Positions 3,283 to 46,487 of a stretch of 62,418 nucleotides of DNA are shown one piece after another. Each line of letters opens with the position of its first letter. Positions within the stretch are counted from its first letter, which is position 1. The translations under genes and the position numbers were made by a program. Location: positions 1 to 62,418 of IMG/VR virus record IMGVR_UViG_3300021963_000132, one strand, 5' to 3'. The notes beneath the pieces were generated by a model. That model had not been told where the DNA came from and did no database searches. It saw only the letters and a list, made by a program, of their open reading frames with translations. Source of the DNA: a virus.

Positions 3283-3289
3283 ATTTTTC

Positions 3290-3628
3290 CTATCTGGAAG
3301 ACAAGTGAACTTCGATGTCGTCTTCAGAAACACCGTCTAGGCGAAGAGCAACCGCAGTTGCCTCACTTGGGTCTAGTGGGTATCTGGCCATCCATAGGGA
3401 TGCCTCCTCAAACTCGACCTCAAATGCCTTCATGGCCTCATCTTGACGCGCAATTGCAGAGCGAACAACTTCTTCTCCTGTCTGAACGCCATCCCATTCT
3501 TCGCCAGTAATCATTTCCACTAATTGTCGACGCTTTTTGGGCATTGAAGAAAATGGTGGGTAATTCATTAAGGCACTCAGAAGGTCGTGTTGTTCCATAA
3601 AGCGCTTTTGGTCATCTGTCAGTTCCAT
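3290..3628 (-). CDS. Hypothetical 112-residue acidic protein between two giants
   Basis: The ATG at 3628 has GAGG seven bases upstream, a usable ribosome site. The product is acidic and helical-looking. It begins with a DDQKRFMEQHDLLSALM segment, and later residues (around 60-100) resemble a small globular helical protein with no Cys pairs or membrane segment. It sits 7 bases downstream of giant B and 7 bases upstream of giant A, so it is co-transcribed with them. I do not recognise the family. A chaperone or small partner for the adjacent giants is possible from position alone, and nothing in the sequence proves it. Confidence 0.8.
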   Translation of the reverse strand: MELTDDQKRFMEQHDLLSALMNYPPFSSMPKKRRQLVEMITGEEWDGVQTGEEVVRSAIARQDEAMKAFEVEFEEASLWMARYPLDPSEATAVALRLDGVSEDDIEVHLSSR

Positions 3629-24300: not shown

Positions 24301-27300
24301 GGGCCGTCTCGCGCTGTGCTCTTCCCTGTCTTATGCGTTCCGCCCTTCTTCTCTGGGCATCCAGCATATCGAGGCTTCTTGAACCCAAATCAGGAGTGGT
24401 CCCAAAGTAATCACTCCCACTCTCTGCCATTGTCTCGTGTACTGCCTTGACTTTTTTGTTATTCCGCGTTGACACCGCAGCATCGGCACTTCTTCCACGG
24501 ACAGAGCGCGATGACACGGGAATCTTTCCACGTTCTTCTACGAGTGTGTCGCGCAGAATTCGTTTTTCTTCCGCTGCTGCGGAGCCCATGGGAGCGTCAA
24601 TCGCTTCAACTTTGTCAATCAAATCTGTGAGTATCTCATCTTTTGATTTTTGTTTTGATGGCGTCAGAATTGGTGTGCCATCAGGCATTTCGCCCGTTAC
24701 CTCAAGTGAGCCTGGTGGCATGAGAACGCCATCCGTTGCACCGTCATGACCATTCTTTGTGTGCATCGCACGAGTGCCTTTGGGGGCAACAATAACAACG
24801 CGCTGCGACATTTCGGGGGATGTCAATTTTAGTGAATCGCCAGCATCCGAGTCAACGAGCAGGCCACGCACGGGAGATGAGTGCTCGATGACGCTTCCAA
24901 CCGTTAGGGGCTCATCCAATTCAATTGCTGAAACAATTGTCATCTCGTCTTCGACAACAGAACTTTCAAGACCATCCAATGTTGGGAATATCTTGTCGCG
25001 CATCTGGTTCTCCAGCAGGGCGTCAACACTTTCCTGGTCTGGCGTACTCATTGTCCCAGCGCCCTCGCGAAGTGATTCGCGCGCACGTGCCGAGCGGTCA
25101 ACGGATGCACGAATTTCCGTCACATCATCAGCAAGTAACCCAGATGCGGTTTGCCATTCTCTACTGAGTTCAATGGGCTGGTCTGCTTCAGCGATGGCTT
25201 TATGCTGCGGCCCATTGCGCTCTGCTATTTCGTCTATCTTGCGACGCCCAACAAGGTCTGGGGCACTGGAAAGCGTTGCTGATGCAAGTTCCTCGCTAGT
25301 TGGTTCATATTCTGGGGAACGACGCTTCTTCTTATCGCCCTTGTCTGGGGCATTCTCCTTGTTACGTACTTTCCCGGGGACATATTGCCTATTGGATGAA
25401 TCAAAGCCATCTCGTCCTGTTGTGAGGTCGCCGGTATGGTCGGCGATTTCGCGCTGCCAGTGGGCAAGTTCATCATCATCAACTTCGGTAATGTCGTCAT
25501 AGCCACGAGCGCGCCTCTTATTTAGTGCACTCTGGCGAAGACCTTTTTGGTTTGGCCGGAGACTAGAGTCAGCGCGACGCATGTATTTGCCCGGCTGTGG
25601 GTTGTAGCCCTTAGCGTTATAGTCCGCAACCTTGTCGTCGGACATCTTTGAACGCGTAGTGTTTTGGTCAAGAATTTGACGCATTCCCTTAATGGCAAGC
25701 CACATGCGAGCCTGTTCATCTGCGGTAAGCGGTTCTGTCGCCGACTTGTCACGTAGGCGCTGGTACTCCGCTTCTAATTTTTCGTAGCGTGCATCCAGTT
25801 GCTCTGGGCTCATCTTCCAATATGCATCAGTTTTATGGCGTATGCCACTCAATGGGTCATTGGGGTCCGGTCCGCCCTCTTCTGGTCCTAGGCCGAATGC
25901 AGCGTCAATAAACTGACGAATTTCGTCGTCATTTTGTTCAAGTGGAATACTCGAGGAGTCTTCTGGATGCCACTGTGTTTCGTTGTCCATCCAGATGTGA
26001 CCAGCCAAGTCACCAAAACCAACAGGAACCTCTTTGGGTTTTCCAGTTTCATCTACATCTGGAGTTGGTGGGGCTGAGGGGGTTGGCACTCCGGGTGGGT
26101 CGGCTTGAGGCGGGTCAACCTCTATGTCTGGTGAACCCCTGGGGGGTATTGGAGCATCAGGGTCGCCGAATCCTGGAGGGACATTGCCCGGTATGTCGCT
26201 GGGGCGCCTATACGTCTGACTCTCTGGCAACATCCATTTAATGCTGGTTCTTACCTCTTCTCCAGCAAGTAATCCCATTTCCCACTGTGCGTATATTTCT
26301 GTGCTTCCCTCCATGAGGGCTTTACGCAACTCTTTGGCTGCTTCTTCAGGTTTGCCTGCCTCGAGGAGACGTTCCGCGTTTCTTAATTTATCTTGATAGT
26401 ACTTGCCAGCAAATATATTAGTAAGACTTCCCTCGAGCGTATACGCACCTCCAGGCGGAAAGTCATAGGCGTTGGGGGAATTCATGAATTCACTGAGTAC
26501 CGCATGCATCCACTCGTCGTTAGTCCATGTCTCTGGGGGACTTTCTAGAACTCTTCCGCTCGGCAAGACAATACGCCCATCTCGCTCATATATATCCAAA
26601 ATCTTTTGCTGAGTAGCGTTATATTGAAGTGCATGTCCAAGTTCGTGGTACGCGATATGTCGAGCCTTCCCCCTGATGCCATCAATACCAAGTGCTGCCT
26701 GGAGTCTTGCTGAACTCACTTCGTTGGCATAACCAACTGATTCTGCGAATACCATCGCGTTACTAATTTCTTCGGCAACTCGCAGCATCTCGGCCAAGCG
26801 TTGTGGTTCGCTAAAACTTTCATCTGGTACTACATACCATCCACCCTTGCCATCCTCTGCTACGCGCTTGGCGCCGCTAGGTCCAAGTAGGTGGGTCAGT
26901 GCTAGCCCAACAGAGTTGAATTTAACAGTGGTAGAAAGCCGTCCATCAATAAGTGTTGCAGGACTTGTCGCACCTTCGATTTCGGCAAATTCCGCAATAC
27001 TTTCGCCGGGTCCTAGTTCATTACCTACCGTAAGCGCTGTAATATTGCCTAGTGTTTTGGCTGCATCCGGATAATCCCTACTCCATACGGCAACCGTAGA
27101 CAGAGATTCCCTTTGTGCCAAATGGTGTCGCCTCCTTACGTCATCTAGTACAGTTTGTCGTTGTTCGGGCGTAAGGCTACTTAGAAATTCCGGGTCAATA
27201 TGACTCTCTAGTACTTTGCGAATTTCTGCGTCATAAACAGCAGAGGCTGTTTTCATATTTTCCCTGAATGACTTCGTGTCATCCCACCGCATACTGCACC

Positions 27301-28411: not shown

Positions 28412-28433
28412 TCCGGGCTCCAATCCCTAGTGC

Positions 28434-30197: not shown

Positions 30198-33100
30198 CTA
30201 TTCATACAGGGCAACTTCTACCTCATCGCCTTGTTCATTAATTTTCTTTATGGTACGTGAATTTATGGGCTGTACAGTCTTATCTACAAAAGTTGCCATT
30301 GCTGCCTTTGCCATCAGTTCTGCCATCTCTGCAAAAAGGGATACACGAACATCACCACCCCTTCCCAGTTGTCGGTCAAGTGCGACATATAGTGCTTCAA
30401 TTATTTCATCAAGTTCACGCTGTGTAAGGAAGAGTGCGCCAGCATTGGTTCTTTTGTCAGTAAGTAATCCAGATTTTTGCCGACGCATAATCTGCTTCAG
30501 CATTAACAGTGCTTGCTTTGTTCTGGCATCGTCGGCTTTCTGTGCCTCGACATCGAGGGAGTCCATTAATTCTTTAAAACGTGTTGCTTCTGCCCTAATC
30601 TCTGCGCGGCCATCTTTTTGACTCCTCATTGAGGCGGGCTTTTGCTGTTCGTTGCGTCGGGCAGCAAAGTATTTTTCGACATCTGGAATTCGATTAAAGG
30701 AGTTGCGCTTTGCCGATGAAGGCCTTTGCCTCTGTGGTTCAATTACTTGAGTCAACTTTGCGCCACGACCGGGGGTTCTGTCTATAAATGGGTCGTCGGC
30801 ATAGGACTCTCTTATTTTTTGCAAGCCATCCCTAATGCCTTCTGCGTTGGCAATATTTTTGAGTACTACTTGCTTTGAGCGAGCATTTGTTCGCGGCCCG
30901 AATCCGGAACCCCTGTTGGCCAAGGCATCCGCCACAACATCACTGACCAAATAATCATCAAGTAGCGATAGGGCATCGTCTAATTGACCAATTGATAAAT
31001 CACGACCCTCATCTGGGCTTGGTGATTCAAATAATTTATTGAGGTCGCGCCAAATCAGACTATGGCGCATGTCATCGTTGCGTGCTGCATACCCGGCGGC
31101 AATTGCGTCATCCATTTGTGCAATAAATTCGGATATTTTATTTGCTCGATTTTGTCTTTGCTGCTTGGCAGCCACTGGGTTATCTGGGGTTGATGATGTC
31201 CTTGCTTTACGTTTCTCGCTTTCGGTAATTCGTTTCGTAAGAGAAGAACGACTCAGCAGCGATGCCAACGAGTTATCTACCGATGATGGTCCATCACTAG
31301 CACGCTCGACGCCAACCGGAGCCTGCGGGTCCTCCTCTTCCAAAAGCATTCCTGAACGCAACTTGCGAGACACCGCTTCTAGTGTTTTTTGGCTAGCAGT
31401 TATTGCATCTTGCCACAAAGCGTTAATGTCAGCATCATTTATTTCTAGCGGGCCCGTCTTCTTCTTGTTTGCCTCTGGGCGCAATATCCGTATGACATCA
31501 ACGGCTTGAAGTGGATTCAGTTCCAAGAAGTCCAAATCGTAAACTTTTTGTGATTGGAAATTCAGAGCATCCTTCGAGGAACTTGATAGCGAATCCCAGG
31601 ACCTAGCGAAAGACGGTAGTGAGCCACGGGAGTCGGGTGCGTCATATGCGAGCGACTCAAATTTTTGTTTTTGTTCGGCGTTGCTGTCCGCCAAGGACAA
31701 CACGGAGAAAATATTATTTGCTTCATCAATTGCATCTTGCTTGCGAATCCCCTTCTTATTGTCTGGAGATGCGCTGTTTTGATTAATCCATGCCAATTTC
31801 TCCACTGGTGACATATTTTTGTATTCCGGTGGAATCATTTGCCTTAGCGGAGAGCCAGCACCATTATCAATTCTTGTAAAATTGCTGGTTCCTGAACTGC
31901 GCATTGATTGTGGGGACAGATTTCGGAGTGCTTGCAGGCCATTCCATTCATTGAGTGTTAGTCGTGAACTCAGGGATATCTCTTTTGCTATGCCGATGTT
32001 TGAAGATTGAGCCCAGGCGAGTAGTTTTTCTTGCTCCTCTTTCCCCATCGACATTGGTGCGCCATTGTTGAAAAGCGTTTCGCTTGAAATTCCGGAAATG
32101 CGACCCATATCGGTTGTGTCAAATTTATTCTTTGGACTAGCCGCCGCTTGCTCAAGTGGCGTGAAGCCTGACATTGCTGGTAAACCCGGTTGCTTATATG
32201 CAAATTCGTATGCTTGTAATATTTCGGCAAATTGTGCTGGACTAACAGAAAAGTTTGAACGAATTCCGCTACCTTGCGAACCTTCGATTAGTGCGTCATA
32301 TAATTTGAATCCAGCAGCAGCATTTGTATTCGCCTGAAACACTTGTTGCAGGCGCGCAAGTTCATCACGGATAATTCCCATTTCGTCACTGGAAAGGCTT
32401 ATGTCTATTGGGTTTTGTGGCAGGGACCCAAACCTACGAGAGAGTGGGGCAATCTGGTTTTTGAACATTGTTGAAACACCGACCGAGTCAACAGCATCAA
32501 GGATATTGGTCGCCATGGCTGGCTCACCATTGCTGAATAGACGGGAGACAAGGCTGTGAAGTTTTTCTGGTGTAACGGATTCAATAGCCTGGGCATTAGC
32601 ACCAGAAACAAGACCGTCAAGAATTGATTTAACGGTTTTTTGTTCGTTGTCTGATAATTGAACCCTCTTGATATCGCGCTCTAGTAGTGACTTGAGGTCG
32701 GGGACACGTCCACGCGCACGTCCTCCAGAATCAACGACATAGCGAGCGTTTGTAGCAATGTCATTAAGTGCTTGACGCGCAGAAGACCTACCGAATGCAA
32801 AATTTTCAATTTCCGTGTCGGTCAATCCGCCATATCGTATGACGTTTCCATTCTTTTTGCCGACAATGACTTCGCCCCTATTGCCATCTATGTTGATGAA
32901 TCGAACATCGGAGTCAGCAAACTTCTCACTTCTCCCGGGATAAAGGCGTTCCGTGTCCGGTAGACCCCTTCCGGTGGGGACGCTTGACCTGCCCATGGTT
33001 CGTCCCACGCGCTTTGCGCTTCGCGTTGTCGGAGCGATTGCGAGAACTTCGCTTTCCGTAATGTCGGCCGAAGTTGTATTGATGATTGCATTTTTTGCAC

Positions 33101-36100
33101 TTAGTAGTTGTTTGCCGCGCTGTATGGAAACATAAGCATGACGCAGCATGTGTGTTGCCGCTGAATTGATTGCTCTAATTTCATCTTCGTCATTAACATC
33201 ATCTAATGACAAAACTTCATCAATATCAAAATTATAAAATGGCGTAAAGTTATTTGAATCCTTTGCAAATTCTTTAATAATTTTATTCAAACTATCTGCA
33301 AGGTTATTAGCCGACATTGTGCTCGCCCTACCACCTGCCGGAAGGTCAAATAGTATTTCTCGTTCCCGTGGTGAGCCCTGTATAAGTGCCGATACTTGTT
33401 GCCATTCATCTTGAGAAAGACCGACTTTATCAATGTCCTTAGCCGTATATTTCTTGGCATCAGAAAGAGCAATTTCTCTAGTAATTTTGTCAATAGAATC
33501 CTGGCGTTGCTCGGCCAACAGATATTCAATAGTTGATTGAACCTCTTCAATCTCGTCACCTACGGCCAAAAGCATGTTGTCCAATACGCCAAAACGCAAG
33601 TCGTCTTCATCTGACAATTCGCCCTCTTCGTTTATCCGTGCTTCGATTTGGTCTCGCTGTGCTGAAATACTTGCGTTTTCTTCAAGTAGACGCTTTACAC
33701 GACTCTTTATTTTTTCATGATTTAGATTTCTGAAATCATCCAAAATGTCTGCCCGTACAGCAGGCAATAGGGAACGAGAACTTCGCATGGAGGCGGAGCG
33801 ACCGACATTCAATAATTGATGGTCATCCTGCACGTAGGCCGAAAGTGATGAGCCAGTTTTTAGGTCGCGCAGTAACACTTGTGATGAATTTTTCTTAGCC
33901 TTACTTATGCCCATCACAACGTAACGTTGTTCACCCTGGAGGTCCAAATTGGAAAGAAAGTTGTTGGGCAATATGTCGCCCAGTTTTATGTCGCCACCAA
34001 ATGAGAGATAGCCGTCTTGTCCATCTGGCGATGATGAACCAATGGGCCTTCCGGCTACCCCGTAGTTCAGTCCTACAGTATTCGCCGCAAGGTCCTGCAG
34101 GTAGCGCGCCCTCTCCCCAACCGCTCGCCCACTTTTCATGGAGCGATACTCACGCCATTCATTTTTGCTCGGGCCTTGGTCCTTCTTGCCGGGTATCTTT
34201 TTGGCGCGACGACGCTGCTCTTGCTCGAGGCGAACTTGCTCCGGGGTGAGTTTCTTCATGTTGCTGGTAACTTTTTTATCACCGGTAACATTCCATTTTT
34301 TGCGATTTTTGCCTCTGCGTGACCGCATTGAAAGTGGCTGACCCCCACTAAGGAACATTGCGTCAATTTTGTCAACACCAAGTGCAGTTAGTTGACCAAA
34401 ATCAAGTTCCGCCAAGTCCGACTTTTCTAGTTCGGTGCCATACATTTCGTTATAGTCCGCAATGAGCCCGCGCACCATGTTCATTTCTTCAGGTGACAAC
34501 TGTGGCTGCCGTTCGCCGTCAATATCGAAACCAAGCAAACGGCTCAACCCATCACGTACCCCATTGTCACGCTGCTGACGTAATTGCGCATAATTGGCCA
34601 ATGAATTGAATACGCTGTCGTCAATTACGCCATCATCAAACATGTCCTGAACAACAGGGTCAAATTTTCTCTGCGAACGGAAGTTGGGAACCGCCTGTGA
34701 ATAAAACACAATATCGAGTGGTTTCAACAATGGGTCGTTGTCAATATTGAGGCGCTCTCCGGCATCGATGAGGGCACGCATGCGCCTCTGGGCAACAACG
34801 TCTTGGTATGTGTTGCGTATTGCCGTATGGGCGCTGAGCCATGCATCGTGCTCTTCTACGCTCATTTCCCCGCTCGCCTTGCGGCGGCGCATCTCCACTG
34901 CGTCGGAGTCAAGTTTGTCTCCAAAATTATTAAATTCCCTATCATTCATAGATTGCAAATTGCTAATTAGTTTCCAGTCTTTAAATTCACGACCTTTTCG
35001 TGTCGTCAATTGCTGTCCTGTTCTAAGTGTTTCTGACTCTATAAACTCTGGCAATTTTGCTGACGAAAGTGGAATGCGTCTATCAATCTGTTCTGGTAGG
35101 GCCTGCGGGTTCGGTGCGGCAAAGAACATGGGGTCCGTAAAACGCGTGCTGCGTGCATCGCCCATCCGCAATCTGGTGACCATATAGCCACGTGTCTGCA
35201 GTTCAAGAATTATCTGGTCCGAACTAGGAAACCATGAAGGGATTGTGACGCCAGAATCATCTGGCGTTGCCGCTTTTTCTGGAATCCTTATGTTGTACAT
35301 CTCAAGTGCATCGATTAGTTCACCATCACTAAATGATGCAAGTGCGGGATTCGGCGTAGTTGTTGGTGCAACCTGCACCTGTTCGGTTAATACAGGACTT
35401 GTCTTCAAGTCGAATCGTGGTGGAGCAATCTTTGTATCGCTATTGCCAGTTCTTCTCGAACGAAGTGATGTTGGGGTTGGCGTCGGCGACATCAACAGAT
35501 TGATTTCATCTTCACTAAAGCCAAGGCCTCGCATCCAGGCAATTTGTTTTTGCCTTTGTTGCTCAAGAAACGCAGCCGAATCCCATGTTTGCTCCCCAGC
35601 GGATGGGGCAATTCCCTGTTGTGGTTGTTTTGGTTTTTCTTCAAGCGGTTCTTCTGGCCTGGCTTCAACGCGTCTGCGCCCGGTTATCTGCGCCCTTTCT
35701 TTACCAAGTTCCGCCGAGCGCCTGCGTAGCGGAATTTGTTCTTTGCGGTACTCATCCAGTGTTATCTCTTCAGCGTCGAGCCGCGCATCAAGGTTTGCCA
35801 TTGACTTGGATATTTGGCTAAGTTCATCATCAATGTCTTTGATATTTCGCGCAGAACGCACGCCTGTTGGCTCACCTGGAATTGTGTCATCAGAAACAAC
35901 GCTTCTAGATGACCGGGCAGAGGCAATACTCCTGTCGCCAGATTCGTTAATTATCCTCTGTGCACGCCGTGCGAATGAGGGCAATAACTCATCATTGTCA
36001 CGCATCTCCAAAATTTCTTCAGCCGTGAACCACTCAACATTTGTATTTTCTCCATCGCGAGGACGTAGTTTCCGCAATTCCCGCGGCCCAACCTCATAAA

Positions 36101-39100
36101 CATATGTATCGTAGGTCCAGTCTGGTGCCATGGGGTCAGAGAAGGAGTACACGGGCTCAATTGCCCTAATGTCTCCGCCGACCTCTTGCATGAATTCGTC
36201 AACGGCGGTAATCCCCGGAATCATCGCATCTATTTCATCACGATGTGCTCCACCAGGGAATGACCACTTACCGGCACCCACGCTCATATTCGGCGAACGG
36301 CGAGCCAACAGATATTCATAAGTTCCGTCTTTGCGTTTACGCCTTACAAGGGCACCAGATGCACCGTAGCGGCCATAGAAACGACGTCCAGTTACGGAGA
36401 AGTAATAGCCTTCGCCAGTACGCTGATTGTTGCCTCCACCAAGGGGGGCGAAAAACGGCAAAAACGGTGGTTTAATAAGTCCATTGCGTAGTGCCCGAAC
36501 ATGCTGGTAGGAGATGTCTCGCGCATAATGAATGCCATCATCTGTTCGGCGTATTTCGTAGGTGTCCCAGATTTTTTCGCTCAATGGCTCCTCTGGGTCT
36601 ATGTCTCGTTTTCTTGCAGTCTTCGGACGAACCCTGCGCGTGCTGCGCGTGCTGCGGCTAGTGGGCTCTGATGCTCGTGCTGTTGGTGCATGCCAGGGTG
36701 GCAGGTATTCATCCGTATCAGAAAAATCCTCAATTTCTAGGAGGCGCAGTATTTCTTCAAAAAGAGTGTCTTTTGTTATGTTTATTTCCCCAACGAATCG
36801 ACGACCAGCAAAAGACTCTATACCACGACTTCTTGCCAATTGCTCACGACTCACAAAAAGGTGATACGGATTCGATGTCTTGATTAATTTTTTAAGTGTA
36901 TTGAGTTGCTTATCCGTGATTGTGCTGGCATCTACGGTAAGTTCGCCTCCAAGTCCGGTCATGAGGCGAACCATCCCATCACCAAAGGCATCCTGATAAT
37001 CAAATTCCATCTCGTGTCGGTCAACGGGATAAAGAGTTCCGTCTGGATACATCCATGCACCCCAATAGAAACTTTTTGCGAATTCATCAACAGACATTTT
37101 CTGCATCGCCATTGGTCGTGGATTAGCGCCACGGCGCAGACGGGAACCGGCATCCAGACCCTTAATCACGTCCTTTAGGTCATTAATGATTGTGTCACGT
37201 GCTGGTGAGGGCGGCGCGTGCTCCATCAATAAGCGAAGTAAATCTGCCCTTCGTTGACTCCCCAAAACCACATAGGGATTGTTGTACATGGCTCCTTCAT
37301 CAATTAAACTTTGTAATATTCTGGATGTTTTGGCTATTTCTTGTTCATCATCATCGTCACTATCGCCAAGTCTGTCATCAATATCTTCCAGTATGGACAA
37401 AAGTTTGGCATTCTCCTCAAGACCGCGTTCTTTGCGTTGCTCTTTCCAATTTATGGCTTGCTGCTGCCGCTCTTTAATACGGCGTCGTTTCTCTTGGATT
37501 TGGGGGTCGTCGTCAATTGAAATACTGGAGCGCATTGAGCGTGTAGATGACGATGTGGCATCGGACTGCGTGGGGCGGGTGGTTATCCCCTCGCGTACCC
37601 CCACTTTCTCAATTTGTTCTGTTGTGATTTCCCAGGCGTCGTCGTCTTTTTCGATAAACACACTCGCGTGTGGGATGCGTGCTGCGAGGTCCGTGATTGC
37701 GTTAATTTGCTCATCAGTTGGAGGATTTGTGGTGTTGTAATCGATAACGATATTGCCAGGAATCGTCCGAATTTCGTAGTCTCGGCCTGGGAGCATCCAG
37801 TTGACGCGAGTCTTCTCGCGAGTTGCGACAAGCCTGATGAGCCCATCAGAAAATGCCTCTTCATAATCGTGCTCATCGCCATGGTAAAAACCAACTGGAT
37901 ATATCGAGCCATCCGGATATATCCAGCCCGCTCCCCAATCGGAATCAGCAAACTCTTCTGATGTTATTCGGTCAAAATGCAGACTTCGCTCATTACCGCC
38001 GCGTCGTCGCCGCAGGGGCTGTGTGGACTCTTCGCGTAATCGTTTTTTGATGTCGGCGCGCAGAGCAATGACAATTTGTTGTTCTTCTGGTGTCAGCGGT
38101 TCAACCTTCTCGCCATATTCCGTGATTATGGCGTCAATGGTAAGCAACCCATCTATGGATGAAGCCCCAGCATCGGTTGCAAGGGGATTATCCAATGCGG
38201 CAGAATCAGAAATAACTCCGCGTAGCAGGTCATCTCTCTTTTCTAGAGCAGTTCTCGCATACCAATTATCACCATCATCACTTCTTGGTCGCGGCTCGTC
38301 ATCACCGGTCAAGTTTGCTACTACGTCTGAATTCAAAATACGTGTTAGAAGGTCAACGAGTGTGCGATTTCGCTCAGTTCTTTTGTATCTAGTCCGTACC
38401 TCTCGGGAAAGTGCTTCGCGTTGTTCTTGTTTGGCCTTGGCGGCTAATTTTCGTCCTTCTGGCGACTCCCGAGTGACCAAACGTCTGGAGCGCTGCGTTC
38501 TGCTGCTTCGTCCATCGAGTAGCCCACGGGTGGTTGGCAACGAACGTGCTGGGCTACCCCCAGATAGGCGCTCCTCTCTAACCGATATTCCCTCAACCGA
38601 ATCAAGGGCAACTTTGCCAAGGTCTTCATCGGAGGCATCGGCAAGACGGATTGACCGAGTTGACCTCATTGAAACTTGTTGGTCAGGCGGGTCTAGGCGG
38701 TCAATGACTTCGTCAATCGGCCCGTCATAGTTCAGGAAACCAACCTCGATTTGTTCTCGTGTAAATTGGCTGGGTAGGTCTATGTTGCTTATTTGAGTTG
38801 GTGGCCTTACTATTCTGGTTATCCAGTTAGAAGCAACTTCAGCAAGTGTTGCCCGTAAATATATTTCTCTGTCTTCTTCTGTCAAATCCTCTAAACCCGG
38901 TATTTGGCGGAGGCTATTCCAGAAGTCCTTATCCCTCGCAAATGAAAGAGACGCAAGTATATTTCCCCACTCTGAATGTCGGTCAAAGGTGTTTCCTAAC
39001 GTATAGTGACCCAAAATGTCATGAAAGACAGTAAGGGGACTTAACACAAAACCACGTTTTTCTAGTTCGTCATGAATGCTCTGCCATGCATGGGGGTCTG

Positions 39101-40244
39101 TCAGTAGGTGTAGGTAGCCGTGAATAAACTCGTTTTCGTTTTTATTTGCTCCGCCAATTCTGGCATCTTCATTACGTGCTATTTTTTCTAATTCCGGAAT
39201 TATGTAATATTTGAGAAGTTTTGCAGAAATTTCATTAGCACGCAACATAATTGCATTTTGTGAATTGGCGCTGTAATCAGTCTTTAGTTGCTCCACATAT
39301 TTGTCCATAAACAAATCGTGGAAGGGGAATCGTTCGCCGTTTCCTGGCCACTTGGCAAGATTCGCATTACGTCTATTGCCGCCCTGGAACGTTGAATTGA
39401 CGAGGTCCTCCCACTTGGCCGCATCGCGGTTATTTGAAAGGTCGTCCACAATCTCCTGCAGAACCCCTGCATTGGGAATTTCGGTATTGTGGTAATCCCT
39501 GTCCCCTGGCAACAAGGAGCGGAGAATCCCATTCGGCGGAAGTCTGAGCGAAATTGTGCCATCGTCGTGAATCCGCAACTCAGAATTATTTACGATGTCC
39601 TCAATGGTAAGGTCAATATCTGGATGTGATTCAAATCCATCAATGATGGTTTTTCTTCTGAGAAGACCAGTACGCTCACGACGACCCATTAATTCCCATA
39701 CGTCACGCATCTGCCTAAGGTTGTTGACCAGTAGATACGTTTGTCGCTCAATGCGGTTTTTCTGAATAGGCGTCCAGTCCCCCATAGACAGAATTTTTTG
39801 TTCAAGTTTTTCGCGTATGCCGAGCCAGAAGTAACCTCTGCCCAAGTTATCTAATTCCTCGTAGTCCGAGTCATCTTTGTCCGTGCCCTCTACAACAACA
39901 TCACTTAGCGGAATTCTTTCACGGATGCTTCGCATGGATACTCGACCACGAGCAGTCCGGGCATCTCTCAGTTGTTCTGGCTTGCCGTCAATTCCACTGA
40001 GCAATGACCGCAATTTGTTCTCATCAAACTCAATGTTGACATTTCCGGCACGGCGCTGGTTTTCAATCTCAACAGCGTCACCTTCGGTCAACTTCGCAAG
40101 CCGTCGAGCAAGATTCTTGGGAACAATAAAACGAGGAATTATTGGACGCTCAAGTGGTTTGCCTTCAAAGACGATGCCATCTGCGTCAGCGTCAACAACG
40201 CCAGTAATGTCAACAAATGCCATGCCTGGTCCAGCGGAGCGCAA
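30198..40244 (-). CDS. Giant polyvalent protein D (about 3,350 aa, probably made as a -1 frameshift fusion to the prohead protease)
   Basis: The frame is open from 40331 to 30198. The first usable start is TTG at 40244 (ATG at 40223), but homology to giants A and B begins upstream (LGPRVGQRLGGGLRSAG), where no start codon exists. Frameshifting from the protease gene is therefore the likely entry; the fused product would be about 3,839 residues. Numbered from the TTG: the Asp tag D18, D20, D22 and PLERPIIPRF; an HDILGH...DRHSEW metal-site-like module (408-425) like those in other polyvalent proteins; two WIYPDG/WMYPDG modules (about 751-885 and 1045-1168); a Nudix domain (about 1268-1435) with GKWSFPGG but a degenerate box; a KTSC-like domain (about 2428-2501); long helical regions. 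Linkers of SMRSxR type recur at least 12 times. Confidence 0.87.
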   Translation of the reverse strand: MRSAGPGMAFVDITGVVDADADGIVFEGKPLERPIIPRFIVPKNLARRLAKLTEGDAVEIENQRRAGNVNIEFDENKLRSLLSGIDGKPEQLRDARTARGRVSMRSIRERIPLSDVVVEGTDKDDSDYEELDNLGRGYFWLGIREKLEQKILSMGDWTPIQKNRIERQTYLLVNNLRQMRDVWELMGRRERTGLLRRKTIIDGFESHPDIDLTIEDIVNNSELRIHDDGTISLRLPPNGILRSLLPGDRDYHNTEIPNAGVLQEIVDDLSNNRDAAKWEDLVNSTFQGGNRRNANLAKWPGNGERFPFHDLFMDKYVEQLKTDYSANSQNAIMLRANEISAKLLKYYIIPELEKIARNEDARIGGANKNENEFIHGYLHLLTDPHAWQSIHDELEKRGFVLSPLTVFHDILGHYTLGNTFDRHSEWGNILASLSFARDKDFWNSLRQIPGLEDLTEEDREIYLRATLAEVASNWITRIVRPPTQISNIDLPSQFTREQIEVGFLNYDGPIDEVIDRLDPPDQQVSMRSTRSIRLADASDEDLGKVALDSVEGISVREERLSGGSPARSLPTTRGLLDGRSSRTQRSRRLVTRESPEGRKLAAKAKQEQREALSREVRTRYKRTERNRTLVDLLTRILNSDVVANLTGDDEPRPRSDDGDNWYARTALEKRDDLLRGVISDSAALDNPLATDAGASSIDGLLTIDAIITEYGEKVEPLTPEEQQIVIALRADIKKRLREESTQPLRRRRGGNERSLHFDRITSEEFADSDWGAGWIYPDGSIYPVGFYHGDEHDYEEAFSDGLIRLVATREKTRVNWMLPGRDYEIRTIPGNIVIDYNTTNPPTDEQINAITDLAARIPHASVFIEKDDDAWEITTEQIEKVGVREGITTRPTQSDATSSSTRSMRSSISIDDDPQIQEKRRRIKERQQQAINWKEQRKERGLEENAKLLSILEDIDDRLGDSDDDDEQEIAKTSRILQSLIDEGAMYNNPYVVLGSQRRADLLRLLMEHAPPSPARDTIINDLKDVIKGLDAGSRLRRGANPRPMAMQKMSVDEFAKSFYWGAWMYPDGTLYPVDRHEMEFDYQDAFGDGMVRLMTGLGGELTVDASTITDKQLNTLKKLIKTSNPYHLFVSREQLARSRGIESFAGRRFVGEINITKDTLFEEILRLLEIEDFSDTDEYLPPWHAPTARASEPTSRSTRSTRRVRPKTARKRDIDPEEPLSEKIWDTYEIRRTDDGIHYARDISYQHVRALRNGLIKPPFLPFFAPLGGGNNQRTGEGYYFSVTGRRFYGRYGASGALVRRKRKDGTYEYLLARRSPNMSVGAGKWSFPGGAHRDEIDAMIPGITAVDEFMQEVGGDIRAIEPVYSFSDPMAPDWTYDTYVYEVGPRELRKLRPRDGENTNVEWFTAEEILEMRDNDELLPSFARRAQRIINESGDRSIASARSSRSVVSDDTIPGEPTGVRSARNIKDIDDELSQISKSMANLDARLDAEEITLDEYRKEQIPLRRRSAELGKERAQITGRRRVEARPEEPLEEKPKQPQQGIAPSAGEQTWDSAAFLEQQRQKQIAWMRGLGFSEDEINLLMSPTPTPTSLRSRRTGNSDTKIAPPRFDLKTSPVLTEQVQVAPTTTPNPALASFSDGELIDALEMYNIRIPEKAATPDDSGVTIPSWFPSSDQIILELQTRGYMVTRLRMGDARSTRFTDPMFFAAPNPQALPEQIDRRIPLSSAKLPEFIESETLRTGQQLTTRKGREFKDWKLISNLQSMNDREFNNFGDKLDSDAVEMRRRKASGEMSVEEHDAWLSAHTAIRNTYQDVVAQRRMRALIDAGERLNIDNDPLLKPLDIVFYSQAVPNFRSQRKFDPVVQDMFDDGVIDDSVFNSLANYAQLRQQRDNGVRDGLSRLLGFDIDGERQPQLSPEEMNMVRGLIADYNEMYGTELEKSDLAELDFGQLTALGVDKIDAMFLSGGQPLSMRSRRGKNRKKWNVTGDKKVTSNMKKLTPEQVRLEQEQRRRAKKIPGKKDQGPSKNEWREYRSMKSGRAVGERARYLQDLAANTVGLNYGVAGRPIGSSSPDGQDGYLSFGGDIKLGDILPNNFLSNLDLQGEQRYVVMGISKAKKNSSQVLLRDLKTGSSLSAYVQDDHQLLNVGRSASMRSSRSLLPAVRADILDDFRNLNHEKIKSRVKRLLEENASISAQRDQIEARINEEGELSDEDDLRFGVLDNMLLAVGDEIEEVQSTIEYLLAEQRQDSIDKITREIALSDAKKYTAKDIDKVGLSQDEWQQVSALIQGSPREREILFDLPAGGRASTMSANNLADSLNKIIKEFAKDSNNFTPFYNFDIDEVLSLDDVNDEDEIRAINSAATHMLRHAYVSIQRGKQLLSAKNAIINTTSADITESEVLAIAPTTRSAKRVGRTMGRSSVPTGRGLPDTERLYPGRSEKFADSDVRFINIDGNRGEVIVGKKNGNVIRYGGLTDTEIENFAFGRSSARQALNDIATNARYVVDSGGRARGRVPDLKSLLERDIKRVQLSDNEQKTVKSILDGLVSGANAQAIESVTPEKLHSLVSRLFSNGEPAMATNILDAVDSVGVSTMFKNQIAPLSRRFGSLPQNPIDISLSSDEMGIIRDELARLQQVFQANTNAAAGFKLYDALIEGSQGSGIRSNFSVSPAQFAEILQAYEFAYKQPGLPAMSGFTPLEQAAASPKNKFDTTDMGRISGISSETLFNNGAPMSMGKEEQEKLLAWAQSSNIGIAKEISLSSRLTLNEWNGLQALRNLSPQSMRSSGTSNFTRIDNGAGSPLRQMIPPEYKNMSPVEKLAWINQNSASPDNKKGIRKQDAIDEANNIFSVLSLADSNAEQKQKFESLAYDAPDSRGSLPSFARSWDSLSSSSKDALNFQSQKVYDLDFLELNPLQAVDVIRILRPEANKKKTGPLEINDADINALWQDAITASQKTLEAVSRKLRSGMLLEEEDPQAPVGVERASDGPSSVDNSLASLLSRSSLTKRITESEKRKARTSSTPDNPVAAKQQRQNRANKISEFIAQMDDAIAAGYAARNDDMRHSLIWRDLNKLFESPSPDEGRDLSIGQLDDALSLLDDYLVSDVVADALANRGSGFGPRTNARSKQVVLKNIANAEGIRDGLQKIRESYADDPFIDRTPGRGAKLTQVIEPQRQRPSSAKRNSFNRIPDVEKYFAARRNEQQKPASMRSQKDGRAEIRAEATRFKELMDSLDVEAQKADDARTKQALLMLKQIMRRQKSGLLTDKRTNAGALFLTQRELDEIIEALYVALDRQLGRGGDVRVSLFAEMAELMAKAAMATFVDKTVQPINSRTIKKINEQGDEVEVALYE

Positions 40245-40300
40245 CCCACCACCTAGGCGCTGGCCAACCCTGGGGCCGAGTTGTTTCAGTTCGGCATTGA

Positions 40301-40337
40301 GCCCTGACTCAGGAAAGTCGGGCGTCAGTATTTTTTT
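40301..40337 (-). promoter_or_regulatory. Programmed -1 ribosomal frameshift signal joining prohead protease and giant D
   Basis: Read on the minus strand, seven A residues (40337-40331) form the heptamer A AAA AAA in the protease frame (TCA AAA AAA TAC TGA). After a 7-base spacer (40330-40324) comes a hairpin: GCCCGACT (40323-40316), loop TTCCTG, then AGTC-A-GGGC (40309-40301), eight pairs with one bulged A. Heptamer type, spacer length and downstream hairpin all fit canonical bacterial/phage -1 signals. Slippage moves the ribosome into giant D's frame at ATA CTG ACG, two codons before the protease stop. The -1 frame has no ATG, GTG or TTG between its upstream stop and the TTG at 40244. Confidence 0.75.
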
Positions 40338-41716
40338 GAACCACCGGCCTTGCCGTAAAGAACCTCATCAATAGTTCCGGCAACATGCTCAAGGGCCATA
40401 ATCGCGTCCGCAGTGAGGCCGTTACTTATGTGGATTCCCTCGTCGTCAACCTCAGCATCTAGTCGGTGGTAGTCAATGACTGGGTCCAATAGGCTTTTTA
40501 CCTGATACGCCTCATTGGGGGTGCAGAGCACCGTGAAAACTTCTTGCTCTTCGGACTTGGACGCAGTGGGCTTAAGCGATTCCAGGAGTTCAATGGCTCG
40601 CGTAAGTTTTTCGGCAGGAACAATGCCCGAGCCGAGTGTTGCGTCAAGAATGACATCGGCGGCTTCATCCATCTGCTCATCCAATGACTTGCCACCACTG
40701 GTCATGAACACCATTCCAGTTGGCATGCCCATTCCAGGCTTCACGCTCATTGGCATTGAGGGCATCTGCGATGGGACGACCGTGGGTGACGGCATCCGAC
40801 TTTCTTCATTGCGCATGCCAATTTTTTCCGGCTTACCAAACATGTACTCGCCAGAATCGTAATCGTGGTGGTAGCCGAGACGGTAGGTGACCATGTTGCC
40901 GTTGCCTGCATCACGGTTGAAAACGACAGAATTCTCCGTTGCGTACAGGACATCCAGTCGTGAGCGCGAACGGCTCATCAACTCCATAGATAGTGCCGCA
41001 AGCGCCTCATCGGGTAGTTGGCGAGCCTCGCCTTCTGCAAAAATATCCTCACGCTGACGGGGGTATTCGCGATTGCGCTCCTCGTGATGGCGAACGGGCA
41101 GTTGGGGCAGAATTGGACGACCCACGACGGCGGGTCCTCGTGGTGTCATTAGGGCGGTTGGCCCCATTCCTGGCATTCCGCACTTTTCGGCGTCATCACT
41201 CTTTACCGAGATAGTCCCAGTCAGTTGATTCGCGCCGTGAAGAACAGGGCTGACTTCATACAACTCAACCTCATGCAGGACATTTGCTTGCGCATGGGGG
41301 TCAAATGTGGCGTTGAGGGTTTTATAGCCAATGCTCCACTCCTGCTCATGTCCAAAGAATGCAACACTCGCAAATGCCTCACGGCCCTTTTCGGTTGCAA
41401 GGTTGAATTGAACCTTGGCAAACAGTCCACCGACATTGGCCATCTTCATTTTTGCTGGAAGGCGGGGGTCGGAGGCGGGAACTTCGTAGATTTCAAGAAC
41501 CTTGCCGATGGGGTCATTCCAACTATGCCCCCATACAACGCGAGGCTTACGGCGCTTCAGACTTTCAGTAAACGCGCCAGTTGCAACAACGTCACCGACA
41601 CTGTCTTTGTTGCCAATTGCCGCCACAAAACATTCAACAATTCCCTGTGCCTCGTCAATGTTGACCTGGCCATTTAGCGCCTTAAAGTTGATTTGGTCCT
41701 GCGTAGAGTTGCTCAT
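40325..41716 (-). CDS. HK97-type prohead maturation protease (peptidase family S78), 463 aa, with frameshift at its 3' end
   Basis: The ATG at 41716 has GGAG six bases upstream; a start 11 codons further out lacks this. Residues 1-175 hold the S78 fold, with catalytic His64 in VVWGHSW and Ser128 in EWSIGYK. The family cuts scaffold and capsid precursors inside the prohead. The C-terminal 290 residues are an extension: Pro/Met-rich stretches, then a helical region (about 330-460) with a segment EEQEVFTVLCTPNEAYQVKSLL. The gene follows the portal, the usual head-gene order, and ends in a -1 frameshift signal that would fuse it to giant D. The short 463-residue form ends GGSKKY. Confidence 0.93.
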   Translation of the reverse strand: MSNSTQDQINFKALNGQVNIDEAQGIVECFVAAIGNKDSVGDVVATGAFTESLKRRKPRVVWGHSWNDPIGKVLEIYEVPASDPRLPAKMKMANVGGLFAKVQFNLATEKGREAFASVAFFGHEQEWSIGYKTLNATFDPHAQANVLHEVELYEVSPVLHGANQLTGTISVKSDDAEKCGMPGMGPTALMTPRGPAVVGRPILPQLPVRHHEERNREYPRQREDIFAEGEARQLPDEALAALSMELMSRSRSRLDVLYATENSVVFNRDAGNGNMVTYRLGYHHDYDSGEYMFGKPEKIGMRNEESRMPSPTVVPSQMPSMPMSVKPGMGMPTGMVFMTSGGKSLDEQMDEAADVILDATLGSGIVPAEKLTRAIELLESLKPTASKSEEQEVFTVLCTPNEAYQVKSLLDPVIDYHRLDAEVDDEGIHISNGLTADAIMALEHVAGTIDEVLYGKAGGSKKY

Positions 41717-41819
41717 ATTGCTCCAATCGTCTTCTTCAATAATAGTCAATCAAACGACATTTTCTTGTACCATTGGGTCATTTCGTGATGTTTACTTAAA
41801 GTCCAACAATTTCAGCAAA

Positions 41820-43868
41820 CTATGGGCGGCTGAATTCCCACGCCCTACGAGCCTCCATGTCAGCAAGGTTTGGTCGTGCGTTGGCGATTGCATCAGCGAA
41901 AATCATGTTCACTGATGTGCGCAACGCTGAATACCTATCATCTTCGCTCGGAATCCCATATGAATTGAATATGGAAGACGAAATATCTGTTGATATTTTT
42001 TCAACAATAGATTTGATGCGGCTCATCTGAGATTCCGAGTGGACAGCAGTTTCGTTTTTGCTCGGAGCCACATACTTGGCTGATTTTTCATTATAAATAT
42101 TTTGCGAATCACGAATAATGGTGGCTAAAACCGGCTTTACGTCCTCATCCAATTGTTTAAACCAAGTTTCCTTGCTTAGGATTGACTCAATATCAAGAGA
42201 GCCGGAGGCAAGTGCTTTTCGTGATTTTTGACCGCTCATCTTCTCGAGGACAACTCTCTGCATTCGCTCAAGAACGCGCTCAATGCTTCTGTCAAGAATC
42301 TCCGTCCAACGGGATACAGACAACTCACTTTGTTCATCTTTGGTAAAGAGTTCTGGCCCGATTGCGTCTGCCATCATCATCCCTGGTGGTGCACCGGCCC
42401 CTGGGGCGCCCATTGCCTCAATGGCCATTGCTCCAGCCATTGTTGTTGGGTCTGGAGAACCGCCAGCACCCATATCTGGTGGGACCGCTGCCGCGTCCCC
42501 GCCCGGGGGCATTCCTGGCATTCCTGGCATTCCTGGGATGGCCGCACCACCTGCATCGGGGGGCATTCCTGGCATCCCCGGAATAGCCCCACCACCCGGA
42601 AGTTCCATTCCTGGCTGCTGTGTTGGCATCGGCTTTTTGGTATTGGCAATTGGCGTTAGGTTGGGGTTCATGAGTAGGCTGTCCGCCAAGTCAGCCTCTA
42701 CGTCCTTACGTCCAGTGCCAGTTCGGTATTCGTTGACACTAATAAGACCCGCCTGCAATTCTTGCATCAGATATCTTTCGGATTCTTGTTTGGCAAGAAT
42801 CAAGACAGGCACATCCGATGTGTCGAAATCAATGTAATGGTCTTCATCCAGTTCATCAAGGGCGCGAGCCAAAACCTCCAAGTGTGGAGCCATTGTCTCG
42901 TTCCAGAAAACACGAATTTCTTCACCGGCATTACTAAACGTCCTGCCTGCTGCATTTCCAATTACCGACTCTGGCACACCAAAAGAAGCAAGAATCTCCT
43001 CCTTGGTGATTTGGCGCATCTGAATGTATGCAGCGTCACGCGGGTTTGATGAGGTATCTACGAAGTCAACTCCATCGTCAGCGGAAATCACCGTGGTTTG
43101 CCCCACTTTGCCCAGATTTCCCCTGAATCTATTGCGTAATTCATCCTTATCATCATCGTCGATTTCGCCACGGAGAACAAGGAGACCACCCGGCCGACCA
43201 TCATTGAGAAGGTAGTTGCGGTTGTACAACTTGGCCAAATTTTCAATTTCTACGGCTATGCCAGCAGACTCCAGTGGCGTTAGGGAGAGATATGGGTCGA
43301 GGGGGTGTGGTCGGCGAATCCATACAACATCTTTTGGATTCATCATTATCTTGTCGCCATTCGGCATCAAAACCTCATAGCCAGAAACAAAAGTTTTTGA
43401 ATCTGGAATCGGTGCCGTTGACTGTGGGGGCAGGAGGTTTAGTCCGATAATTCCACCATCTCGGCCACGAACCTTTTCAATAAAAACTCCTCGCGTACCT
43501 AGGAGCAACTGTGATGACATTCTATATCTAAATATAAATGAATTTTCACCAATGTTGCTTTTGGTGTTTAAGAGGTCCAGGATGCCCTTCTGCTTACCGG
43601 GTTTGTTTTTTACAACCGTCCCCTCAGGGGAATTGTCGCGCCTGAGGATAATGGGCAGCCGTGCCTGGTTGCCAGCAATTGCATCAATGCAGCGAGATAC
43701 CCAAGTAACTTTCTGCATTCCCTCGCGATAGGCGCGCTCAATATCCCAGGGGTCGCGATATGCCTTGCCAGCATACGAAGCGTTCTGGGCTACAATGCCA
43801 CCGGGTCCGATGGCTGATTTCTGTGCCTCATTGGCCAGAGATTTTGTGTCAATTTTGTTCCAGGCCAT
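41820..43868 (-). CDS. Portal protein, HK97 family, 682 aa
   Basis: Residues about 1-420 fit the HK97-type phage portal family, the dodecameric ring at the head vertex that carries DNA in and out and binds terminase. Visible family segments include VTWVSRCIDAIAGNQARLPI, a MNPKDVVWIRRPHPLDPYLSLTPLE stretch, QITKEEILASFGVPESVIG and FWNETMAPHLEVL. A Gly/Pro/Met-rich, collagen-like linker of PGMPGMPP repeats (about 420-490) follows. A further helical domain of about 190 residues is beyond the usual portal length. The ATG lies two bases after the stop of the upstream small membrane gene, with no clear Shine-Dalgarno, so coupling is likely. It lies directly before the protease gene. Confidence 0.94.
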   Translation of the reverse strand: MAWNKIDTKSLANEAQKSAIGPGGIVAQNASYAGKAYRDPWDIERAYREGMQKVTWVSRCIDAIAGNQARLPIILRRDNSPEGTVVKNKPGKQKGILDLLNTKSNIGENSFIFRYRMSSQLLLGTRGVFIEKVRGRDGGIIGLNLLPPQSTAPIPDSKTFVSGYEVLMPNGDKIMMNPKDVVWIRRPHPLDPYLSLTPLESAGIAVEIENLAKLYNRNYLLNDGRPGGLLVLRGEIDDDDKDELRNRFRGNLGKVGQTTVISADDGVDFVDTSSNPRDAAYIQMRQITKEEILASFGVPESVIGNAAGRTFSNAGEEIRVFWNETMAPHLEVLARALDELDEDHYIDFDTSDVPVLILAKQESERYLMQELQAGLISVNEYRTGTGRKDVEADLADSLLMNPNLTPIANTKKPMPTQQPGMELPGGGAIPGMPGMPPDAGGAAIPGMPGMPGMPPGGDAAAVPPDMGAGGSPDPTTMAGAMAIEAMGAPGAGAPPGMMMADAIGPELFTKDEQSELSVSRWTEILDRSIERVLERMQRVVLEKMSGQKSRKALASGSLDIESILSKETWFKQLDEDVKPVLATIIRDSQNIYNEKSAKYVAPSKNETAVHSESQMSRIKSIVEKISTDISSSIFNSYGIPSEDDRYSALRTSVNMIFADAIANARPNLADMEARRAWEFSRP

Positions 43869-44153: not shown

Positions 44154-46487
44154 ATGACAGATTGGAATAAAGTGCTTCAGTTTCTGGAGCCCAAGGAGCC
44201 GCTCTTCTGCCCAGAGGAGCCGTCAATTACGCAAAAGGTATTTTTGCGTACATATTGCATGGAGGCGCTATTCGGCGGAGCGGCTGGCGGAGGAAAAAGT
44301 TCGGCTTTATTGATGTCGGCGTTGCAATATGTTGATATTCCCGGATACTCTGCAATTATTTTTCGTCGTACGTATGCTGACTTGGCCCTACCTGGCGCAA
44401 TCATGGACCGTTTCATTAATTGGGTGGCCCCCTATGATGAAGTTCGTTGGAATGCCAATAACTATATTGCTACATTCCCATCTGGAGCCAGAATTTCGTT
44501 TGGATATCTGAATAATCAACAAGATTATTTACGCTACAAGGGGCCGATGGCGAAAGGAACAGAAGTATTGACCAGTATTGGCTGGAAGAAGATTGAAGAC
44601 ATTCAGGTCGGGGAGTTGGTTGCCTCGATGAATCCAGCAACTCGTGAGTGGGATTACCAGCCGGTCACCCATACTTGGGTCTACGACCATGACGGTCCGA
44701 TTTATAGCCCGCGCAAAGGGTCTGACGTTTCGTTCGCGGCCACCGAGGACCACACCTGGTGGGTGTCAACGCAAAAGATTAATCAATTGCGTAAGTACAG
44801 AACTAACGAATTGCCCAAGGTTGCACGATTTCCGCAGGCAGCCGAATTTGTGGGCGGCCTTCATCCGGGCGCTTCACTCTTTCCCCGTTCTGGCCACGGC
44901 AAACAGAAAAGTTCTGACCTCGTATTCTCTGCTGAAGCATGGTCAACATTTCTTGGGTGGTACATAGCAGAAGGATGCACAAGCAAGGGCTCAATCCATA
45001 TAGCGCTACATGACAGCCATAGCAGAAATCATAAAAATAATTTAGTGCACCTGCTTGAGTCTTCTGGCGCACACGTTTATGACAACCCACGATACTTGCA
45101 GTTCTCTAACCAGAAACTTGCTTCCTGGCTTGACGAAAACACCGGCAAAGGGGCACACAACAAGCGAATCCCCGACGAAGTGTTCCTTTGGAAAACCGAG
45201 TATGCCCGCCTTGTCCTTCAGTCATTGGTTGAGGGCGATGGCACTTGGAGAACTGATACGAATGCGCATTTTGTGACTGTTTCGCGCGAACTTGCTGATG
45301 ACATAATGCGTCTCGCTCAGCACTGCGGGTTCAGGGCAACCCTTGATGAACGCCACGACAATACGGTAACGCCGGACGGAAAGAAGCATGAAGTAACTGC
45401 CTTCCATGTTCACCTCTTGCATCGAGCCGGACACGACACTGGGATTAGCCTTGCTATTGATAATCAGCCGATTGTTTCCGAGCACTACAAAGGAACAGTC
45501 CACTGCCTCACTGTCCCACCACATCACACATTTTTGATTCGCCACAATGGCAGGGTTGTGTGGACTGGTAATTCAGAATTTCAGTTTATTGGGATGGACG
45601 AGGTTACGGAAATCAGAGAATCTGACTATCGTTACCTCTTCTCTCGTATGCGTCGCCCTGTATCTGGACCCCTATCCCAAGTCCCACTACGAATGCGCTC
45701 CGCCTGCAACCCCGCACCCAACTGGGTGAGACAGAGATTCATCGTAGAAGGGCAGACCGAGGGAAGAATTTTCGTACCTTCAAAATTGTCCGATAACCCT
45801 GGAATCGATGCTGATTCGTATCGTGCGGCACTTCAGGCACTAGACCCCCTGGAACGGAGGAGATTGGAGGAAGGCGACTGGTGGGCCACAACCCTTGGTT
45901 CAATGTTCCAGCGTGAGTCGATTATTGTTATTGACCCGACGGACTTGCCCAAAATCACTTCGTCTGCGCGTGCAGTTAGATTCTGGGACCTTGCGGCTTC
46001 GGAGCCAAGTCACACCAACCCCGACCCCGACTGGACGGTTGGCACTTTGATGCTTTTTGATAGCGGAATTGCTTACATACTTGATGTTCGGCGTGCTCGC
46101 GTACGGGGAGAAAAAGTTGAGGAACTAGTTGCTAGAACAGCGTATGAAGATGGGCACTCCGTAGCAATTCGCATGGAGCAGGAGCCTGGTTCGTCTGGAA
46201 AGGCGTTAATCGACCAGTATGCTCGCTACGTTCTGCCGGGTTTTGATTTTCAGGGTATTCGTTCAACCGGCGACAAGGTCACCAGGGCTCGCCCCTTTGC
46301 AGCGGCAGCCGCAAATGGAAACATTCGTTGCGTTCGTGGGCCGTGGCTCACCGACTGGCTTGATGAATTATCAACCTTCCCCGAAGCGTGTGACCACGAC
46401 GACCAGGTAGACTCGGCCGTCGGTGCATTCACCTATCTCGCTGGTTTGGGGTTGCCCCAACGCAAGCGGGTGGGTATCATCATCTGA
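44154..46487 (+). CDS. Terminase large subunit interrupted by an intein (777 aa precursor, 434 aa after splicing)
   Basis: GGAG lies upstream of the ATG. The N-terminal ATPase carries a Walker A at 41-49 (GGAAGGGKS). The Walker B (FIGMDE, ending D482 E483) comes just after the intein. The C-terminal RNase H-fold nuclease has RFWDLA (D612), an MEQEPGSSGK segment (about 675-684) and HDDQVDS (D750, D753). Terminase pumps DNA into the prohead through the portal and cuts the concatemer. The intein occupies residues 131-473, between RYKG and SEFQFIGMDE. A spliced length of 434 is normal for TerL. No small terminase subunit was recognised nearby; the HNH gene downstream may assist cutting, as in some phages. 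Confidence 0.96.
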   Translation: MTDWNKVLQFLEPKEPLFCPEEPSITQKVFLRTYCMEALFGGAAGGGKSSALLMSALQYVDIPGYSAIIFRRTYADLALPGAIMDRFINWVAPYDEVRWNANNYIATFPSGARISFGYLNNQQDYLRYKGPMAKGTEVLTSIGWKKIEDIQVGELVASMNPATREWDYQPVTHTWVYDHDGPIYSPRKGSDVSFAATEDHTWWVSTQKINQLRKYRTNELPKVARFPQAAEFVGGLHPGASLFPRSGHGKQKSSDLVFSAEAWSTFLGWYIAEGCTSKGSIHIALHDSHSRNHKNNLVHLLESSGAHVYDNPRYLQFSNQKLASWLDENTGKGAHNKRIPDEVFLWKTEYARLVLQSLVEGDGTWRTDTNAHFVTVSRELADDIMRLAQHCGFRATLDERHDNTVTPDGKKHEVTAFHVHLLHRAGHDTGISLAIDNQPIVSEHYKGTVHCLTVPPHHTFLIRHNGRVVWTGNSEFQFIGMDEVTEIRESDYRYLFSRMRRPVSGPLSQVPLRMRSACNPAPNWVRQRFIVEGQTEGRIFVPSKLSDNPGIDADSYRAALQALDPLERRRLEEGDWWATTLGSMFQRESIIVIDPTDLPKITSSARAVRFWDLAASEPSHTNPDPDWTVGTLMLFDSGIAYILDVRRARVRGEKVEELVARTAYEDGHSVAIRMEQEPGSSGKALIDQYARYVLPGFDFQGIRSTGDKVTRARPFAAAAANGNIRCVRGPWLTDWLDELSTFPEACDHDDQVDSAVGAFTYLAGLGLPQRKRVGIII
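44544..45572 (+). mobile_element. Intein with LAGLIDADG homing endonuclease in terminase, class 3 type
   Basis: The element spans Pro131 to Asn473 (343 residues), with Ser474 as the first residue of the C-extein. Position 1 is Pro, not Cys or Ser, in PMAKGTEVLTSIGWKKI. The three residues that define class 3 inteins are present: Trp202 (block B, TEDHTW), Cys451 (block F, VHCLTV) and Thr471 (block G, WTGN). Two dodecapeptide motifs, LGWYIAEG (267-274) and LVLQSLVEGDG (353-363), mark the homing endonuclease. Class 3 inteins splice using the block F Cys as first nucleophile; that is established for the class and inferred here. Confidence 0.92.

Follow-up and report, generated by a model that had tools for sequence, protein, structure and literature searches.

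Programmed ribosomal frameshifting in tailed phages is known mainly from tail chaperones and from extensions of coat proteins. A 2016 review of recoding, in the part of its text that was searched, covers the lambda tail, T3/T7, A2 and Listeria coat cases, gives a short-to-long product ratio of about 30:1 for lambda G/GT, and does not name a head protease (PMC5009743); a survey of 1,106 genomes mentions neither protease nor prohead (PMC3711429). The polyvalent proteins and the P1 Dar proteins are giant multidomain phage proteins, some of which are packaged in the head and proteolytically processed (PMC5512222, PMC9024508), and in polyvalent proteins the assemblin-like proteases reported are all C-terminal (PMC5512222). 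No paper on frameshifting of a head maturation protease was found, and frameshifting in the phage head-protease gene analyzed here was not found described; subscription journals were mostly not covered by the search, so this absence is weak evidence.

The locus lies in IMG/VR virus record IMGVR_UViG_3300021963_000132, positions 1 to 62,418, the whole of this 62,418-nucleotide stretch being referred to here as the window. Two head genes are adjacent on its minus strand:

40325..41749, minus strand: S78 head maturation protease, zero-frame short product of 474 codons (Pfam PF04586 and PHROG)
41820..43868, minus strand: portal protein, directly upstream of the protease (Pfam PF04860, E 8.3e-45)

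The PF04586 match (E 4.9e-13) spans protease residues 32-184 at 50 bits against a cut-off of 21, and the PHROG match is to head maturation protease (E 5.4e-28); that this enzyme cuts head proteins in the prohead is inferred from its family. An HK97-type capsid gene was present in seven of eight related phage contigs searched. The large terminase gene (44154-46487) is split by a LAGLIDADG domain, likely an intein. The isolates nearest by portal and protease are mostly actinophages, and the frameshift site described below is absent from those examined (Gordonia phages DalanDe, GMA6 and ChisanaKitsune, and Brevibacterium phage Cantare).

The protease gene ends, on the minus strand, in GGT TCA AAA AAA TAC TGA, where the following elements are found:

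40331..40337, minus strand: slippery heptamer A AAA AAA in the zero frame, present in all 11 distinct window-type junctions
40324..40330, minus strand: 7-nt spacer TACTGAC, which contains the zero-frame stop
40325..40327, minus strand: protease zero-frame stop TGA
40301..40323, minus strand: stimulatory hairpin GCCCGACT-TTCCTG-AGTC(A)GGGC, 8 bp with one bulged A

The description of this site as a canonical −1 signal in the earlier sequence-only reading is confirmed, and run, spacer and stem are retained in 11 junctions. The site satisfies the X XXY YYZ heptamer criterion for −1 programmed ribosomal frameshifting in the zero frame, the criterion of a structure 5-9 nt downstream (a 7-nt spacer and an 8-bp stem, with compensatory changes among relatives), and, in both the window-type and the in-frame clades, the criterion of synonymous constraint. 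The 48-nt RNA fold at the window junction has an energy of -15.2 kcal/mol (z -3.65), equalled by one of 200 shuffles. In the −1 frame of the window a TGA TGA lies at 40365-40370, after which the frame is open to 30198. The resulting extension, giant B, has these features:

30198..40331, minus strand: −1 frame extension (giant B), 3,377 codons from ATA
40113..40280, minus strand: conserved DxDxDG module at the start of the extension, with paralogues near 2541 and 11438
35997..36353, minus strand: NUDIX domain within the extension (Pfam PF00293, E 4e-6, above the curated cut-off)
30243..30623, minus strand: C-terminal helical domain, common to the in-frame protease fusions of relatives (HMM; AlphaFold mean pLDDT 81)

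The proposed fusion length of 3,839 aa holds if the protease starts at an internal ATG; with the TTG at 41749 as the start it becomes 3,850.

Searches of IMG/VR with the N-terminus of the giant, the protease and the portal returned at least 135 loci. Eleven distinct junctions, the window counted, share one layout: a zero-frame stop directly behind the slip site and an open −1 frame that begins with the same DxDxDG module. The A-run and hairpin, whose recurrence in related phages had been proposed as a check, do recur in this clade, with seven or eight A throughout and with spacer and stem also kept, and no loss of the heptamer was seen among relatives of this layout. A scan of DNA for the exact signal also returned six contigs without a protease, which were regarded as chance matches. 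A homopolymer sequencing or assembly error that split one in-frame gene would be a natural suspicion at an A-run, as such runs are error-prone and the gene occupies a single frame in other relatives. The same frame offset nevertheless recurs in the 11 distinct junctions, several of them assembled independently from different metagenomes; contigs from separate metagenomes carry identical A-runs (L005/L006/L007; L011/L012; L017/L018/L019). The zero-frame stop is TGA, TAA or TAG and lies at different positions, and therefore has not been passively copied. As the site is also under constraint, an error is largely refuted and hardly credible as an explanation.

This constraint was measured in codon alignments of the window-type sequences, read in the zero frame before the slip and in the −1 frame after it. 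Synonymous codon identity peaks at the junction at ~0.87-0.90 against a mean of 0.46, falling on either side; by this measure the junction is the most strongly constrained part of the region at synonymous sites, with a signal beyond chance. The stem changes in ways that preserve pairing: in L009 a G-C pair has become A-U (GACT/AGTC in the window, AACT/AGTT in L009), in L014 the bulge has moved, and L015-L017 have a different, perfect 8-bp stem at the same 7-nt spacing. The folding z is only modest for L005 and L008 (about -0.8 to -0.95), and the L015-L017 stem exceeds the length tested for folding.

The giant might instead be a separate protein, made by re-initiation coupled to termination at the protease stop and starting at a weak or non-canonical codon, such as a CTG or ATA in the overlap or TTG 40244. 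The window and L003 have a CTGA overlap where the protease ends, a GTG or TTG lies 12 nt past the start of the heptamer in some relatives, and in L021 and L066/L119 the extension is a separate ORF that begins at its own ATG and lacks the heptamer. These last relatives do meet the sequence-only reading's test of an own start or a missing heptamer, but they form a separate branch with a third arrangement of the same gene, and relatives with the window layout all keep the heptamer. The claim that the −1 frame of the window contains no ATG, GTG or TTG from the TGA TGA to TTG 40244 was found correct, that TTG being the first such codon. The window, L015-L017 and L195 have no such codon ahead of the conserved module, and in L015-L017 and L195 the first candidate start falls within it; the other relatives have GTG or TTG candidates at varying places. 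Because the position of the putative start varies or the start is missing, as in L015-L017 and L195, independent initiation cannot be the shared mechanism. Re-initiation also leaves the invariant A-run, the covarying stem and the synonymous constraint upstream of the stop unexplained, and relatives make the same joint in frame; we regard it as very unlikely. A −1 frameshift remains the preferred reading.

In more distant relatives the protease frame itself continues for 500 to more than 3,000 residues. Most relatives therefore encode protease and extension as one ordinary gene, so that the fusion, which had been taken as new, is commonplace among them; it is the frame offset that distinguishes the window clade. 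The same Gly-rich joint carries, in most of the in-frame relatives, a G GGA AAA or A AAA AAA followed by a spacer of 4-8 nt and a GC stem, and a stop in the −1 frame usually lies 1-5 codons beyond the slip site. The 12-codon segment at the junction ranks first of 416 for synonymous identity among eleven in-frame sequences (0.944; mean 0.522, sd 0.118). Downstream folding at 33 distinct GGGAAAA sites has a mean z of -2.45 relative to synonymous-codon resampling, with 24 of the 33 below -2, compared with a mean z of -0.19 and 10 of 132 below -2 for the controls. Nine distinct stems share one geometry in which all 54 of 54 pairs are standard and all six pairs are altered on both sides; when 3' arms were dealt to other sequences, 34.8 pairs were standard and none of 5000 trials reached 54. 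Pairs were counted ungapped by script, as MAFFT had misaligned the short stems. The −1 stop lies no more than five codons away at 29 of 33 sites against 42% in the control; short distances are partly built in, since a −1 stop within 15 codons was one of the grounds on which heptamer sites were chosen. Near the window clade stands the in-frame relative L020, with A AAA AAA G followed by a 6-nt spacer and a stem of z -3.3; its −1 frame ends after one codon.

These sites also bear on RNA polymerase slippage, in which transcription through the seven A would yield a mixed mRNA pool and hence both products. The window clade does present a homopolymer, and some in-frame relatives (L031-L053) have ten or more A; the latter have no clear stem and were left out of the support. 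Most relatives, though, carry G GGA AAA at the junction, which favours the ribosome over RNA polymerase because no homopolymer slip is possible there, and the conserved stem and spacer suit a ribosomal stimulator. Polymerase slippage is accordingly judged very unlikely indeed. The comparisons strongly support the reading that ribosomal frameshifting is widespread in the in-frame relatives with the roles of the frames swapped, and that it can make both forms in both designs, although there are no expression data.

Heptamers also occur in distant relatives, L102, L118 and L135 among them, and were judged to be there by chance. The in-frame lineages L068, L105 and L133 have no clear frameshift site; because of these and of L021 and L066/L119, which lack the heptamer, frameshifting is not essential everywhere. 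The protease tree places the window layout in two separate positions, the window clade and L195, the latter beside in-frame relatives; starred branches of this tree alone do not force two origins, but the extension of L195 has the sequence type of the second clade.

The identity of giant B follows from its C-terminus. Over its last ~125 residues it is homologous to the C-terminal end of the in-frame fusions, and an HMM that was built on the final 150 residues of in-frame relatives alone matches the end of the window giant with an E of 6e-30; the domain was found in six of six closed −1 extensions. Because an HMM of in-frame relatives alone matches its end, giant B is identified by homology as the frame-shifted second half of the protease gene and not an unrelated neighbour. 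The earlier reading missed both this and the widespread swapped-frame frameshifting in relatives. Polyvalent-like domains (NUDIX) sit between the protease and the C-terminal domain; Pfam and PHROGs searches with the whole of giant B gave no match, and NUDIX appeared only with fragments. A metallopeptidase-like HDILGH motif was also seen by eye in giant B. Models of the C-terminal domain (best mean pLDDT 81) found no fold match in PDB or BFVD at E <= 0.001, and homology to a scaffold is therefore not shown.

Several other giants are encoded in the window. The module VDADxDGIVFEGxPLERPIIPRF is common to three giants (2541, 11438 and 40193, minus strand), lies ~230 residues into the protein in two of the three, is possibly a shared targeting or cleavage region, and has no match among isolate phage records. 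The sequence-only reading had likened the start of giant B to a segment of the giant at 18329-28423; a paralogous segment exists, but LGPKVGQRIGRGLRSAP is located in the left-edge giant (ORF 1-3333, at ~2.6 kb). That partial giant also has a HELAHAWE metallopeptidase-like motif and a Walker A-like GGTTGSGKS, both seen by eye. The giant at 3636-12158 carries a KTSC domain and a long stretch of pentapeptide repeats (Pfam E 4e-57). A AAA AAA occurs in frame a second time within this giant, 6386 nt from where it starts, as a heptamer match only.

The best explanation, and in our judgment a highly probable one, is that a −1 frameshift yields a short protease and a protease-extension fusion; carriage into the prohead and cleavage of cargo are inferred only. 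The frameshift originally suggested for this gene is upheld by the conservation of heptamer, spacer and stem, the compensatory changes, the synonymous constraint, the lack of usable starts and the in-frame relatives; production of the two forms by this means is strongly supported by such comparison, in the absence of any measurement of expression. Ribosomes translating the S78 protease gene would reach the hairpin, where a fraction would move back by one base on A AAA AAA. Those that stay in frame would terminate at once, giving the short protease, and shifted ribosomes would read the −1 frame to make the protease plus a long extension ending in the conserved helical domain. Most relatives would do the reverse, with unshifted ribosomes producing the fusion and a −1 slip at G GGA AAA or A AAA AAA producing the short protease.

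A possible role of the extension, by analogy with known head proteases, is that of a prohead anchor for the protease. In short relatives the middle of the extension is charged, of low complexity and scaffold-like, and in the window it is enlarged to hold domains such as NUDIX. The inference is that the extension brings the protease and a polyvalent-like cargo to the inside of the prohead, the cargo being released afterwards by protease cuts at repeated [LM]RS-type linkers. Extensions are enriched in the motif [LM]RS or G[LMF][RA]S, with 12 [LM]RS in giant B where 2.9 are expected; SMRS/[LM]RS linkers show strong enrichment in the giants at 30198-40331, 18329-28423, 3636-12158 and 1-3333, and no [LM]RS linker occurs in the window protease or portal. 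In relatives, an F/I-K-S-[IV]-G stretch lies ~100-130 residues into the capsid protein, the position at which HK97-type capsid proteins are cut. Cleavage of cargo at the linkers is proposed, as an inference, from this enrichment and the capsid stretch together. A broader reading remains tentative, and we would put it at somewhat under an even chance: that in a large clade of uncultured phages a conserved −1 frameshift sets the ratio of free protease to protease fused with a C-terminal region for prohead targeting and cargo, with frame roles flipped, probably more than once, and that the fusion is a Gag-Pro-Pol-like precursor bringing multi-enzyme cargo into the prohead, to be freed at [LM]RS / G[LMF][RA]S linkers resembling the capsid F/I-K-S junction.

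A head-protease site conserved despite exchanged frames would strongly indicate that both forms matter in head assembly, and suggests a possible way of metering a cargo of several thousand residues into the capsid. Several known systems come close to this arrangement. The in-frame relatives resemble E. coli dnaX (gamma/tau), where an A-rich heptamer, spacer and stem with a −1 stop within a few codons give a truncated protein; dnaX is a different gene, and in the window clade it is the long product that is the −1 product. In lambda G/GT, too, a −1 frameshift lets a phage morphogenesis gene produce a short and an extended form, and its slip site, G GGA AAG, is nearly the G GGA AAA of the relatives, but it serves tail assembly rather than a head protease, and we know of no frame-swapped relatives of it. 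CsoS2 of alpha-carboxysomes is also made in two lengths by frameshifting and is a shell-assembly scaffold protein, in a bacterial organelle and without a protease. The polyvalent proteins differ in that the protease here is N-terminal and is joined by frameshifting. In retroviral Gag-Pro-Pol, an analogy from unrelated viruses, a −1 frameshift sets the amount of enzyme-bearing fusion that enters the assembling particle; in the phages described here the protease is the zero-frame part and the extension is the cargo.
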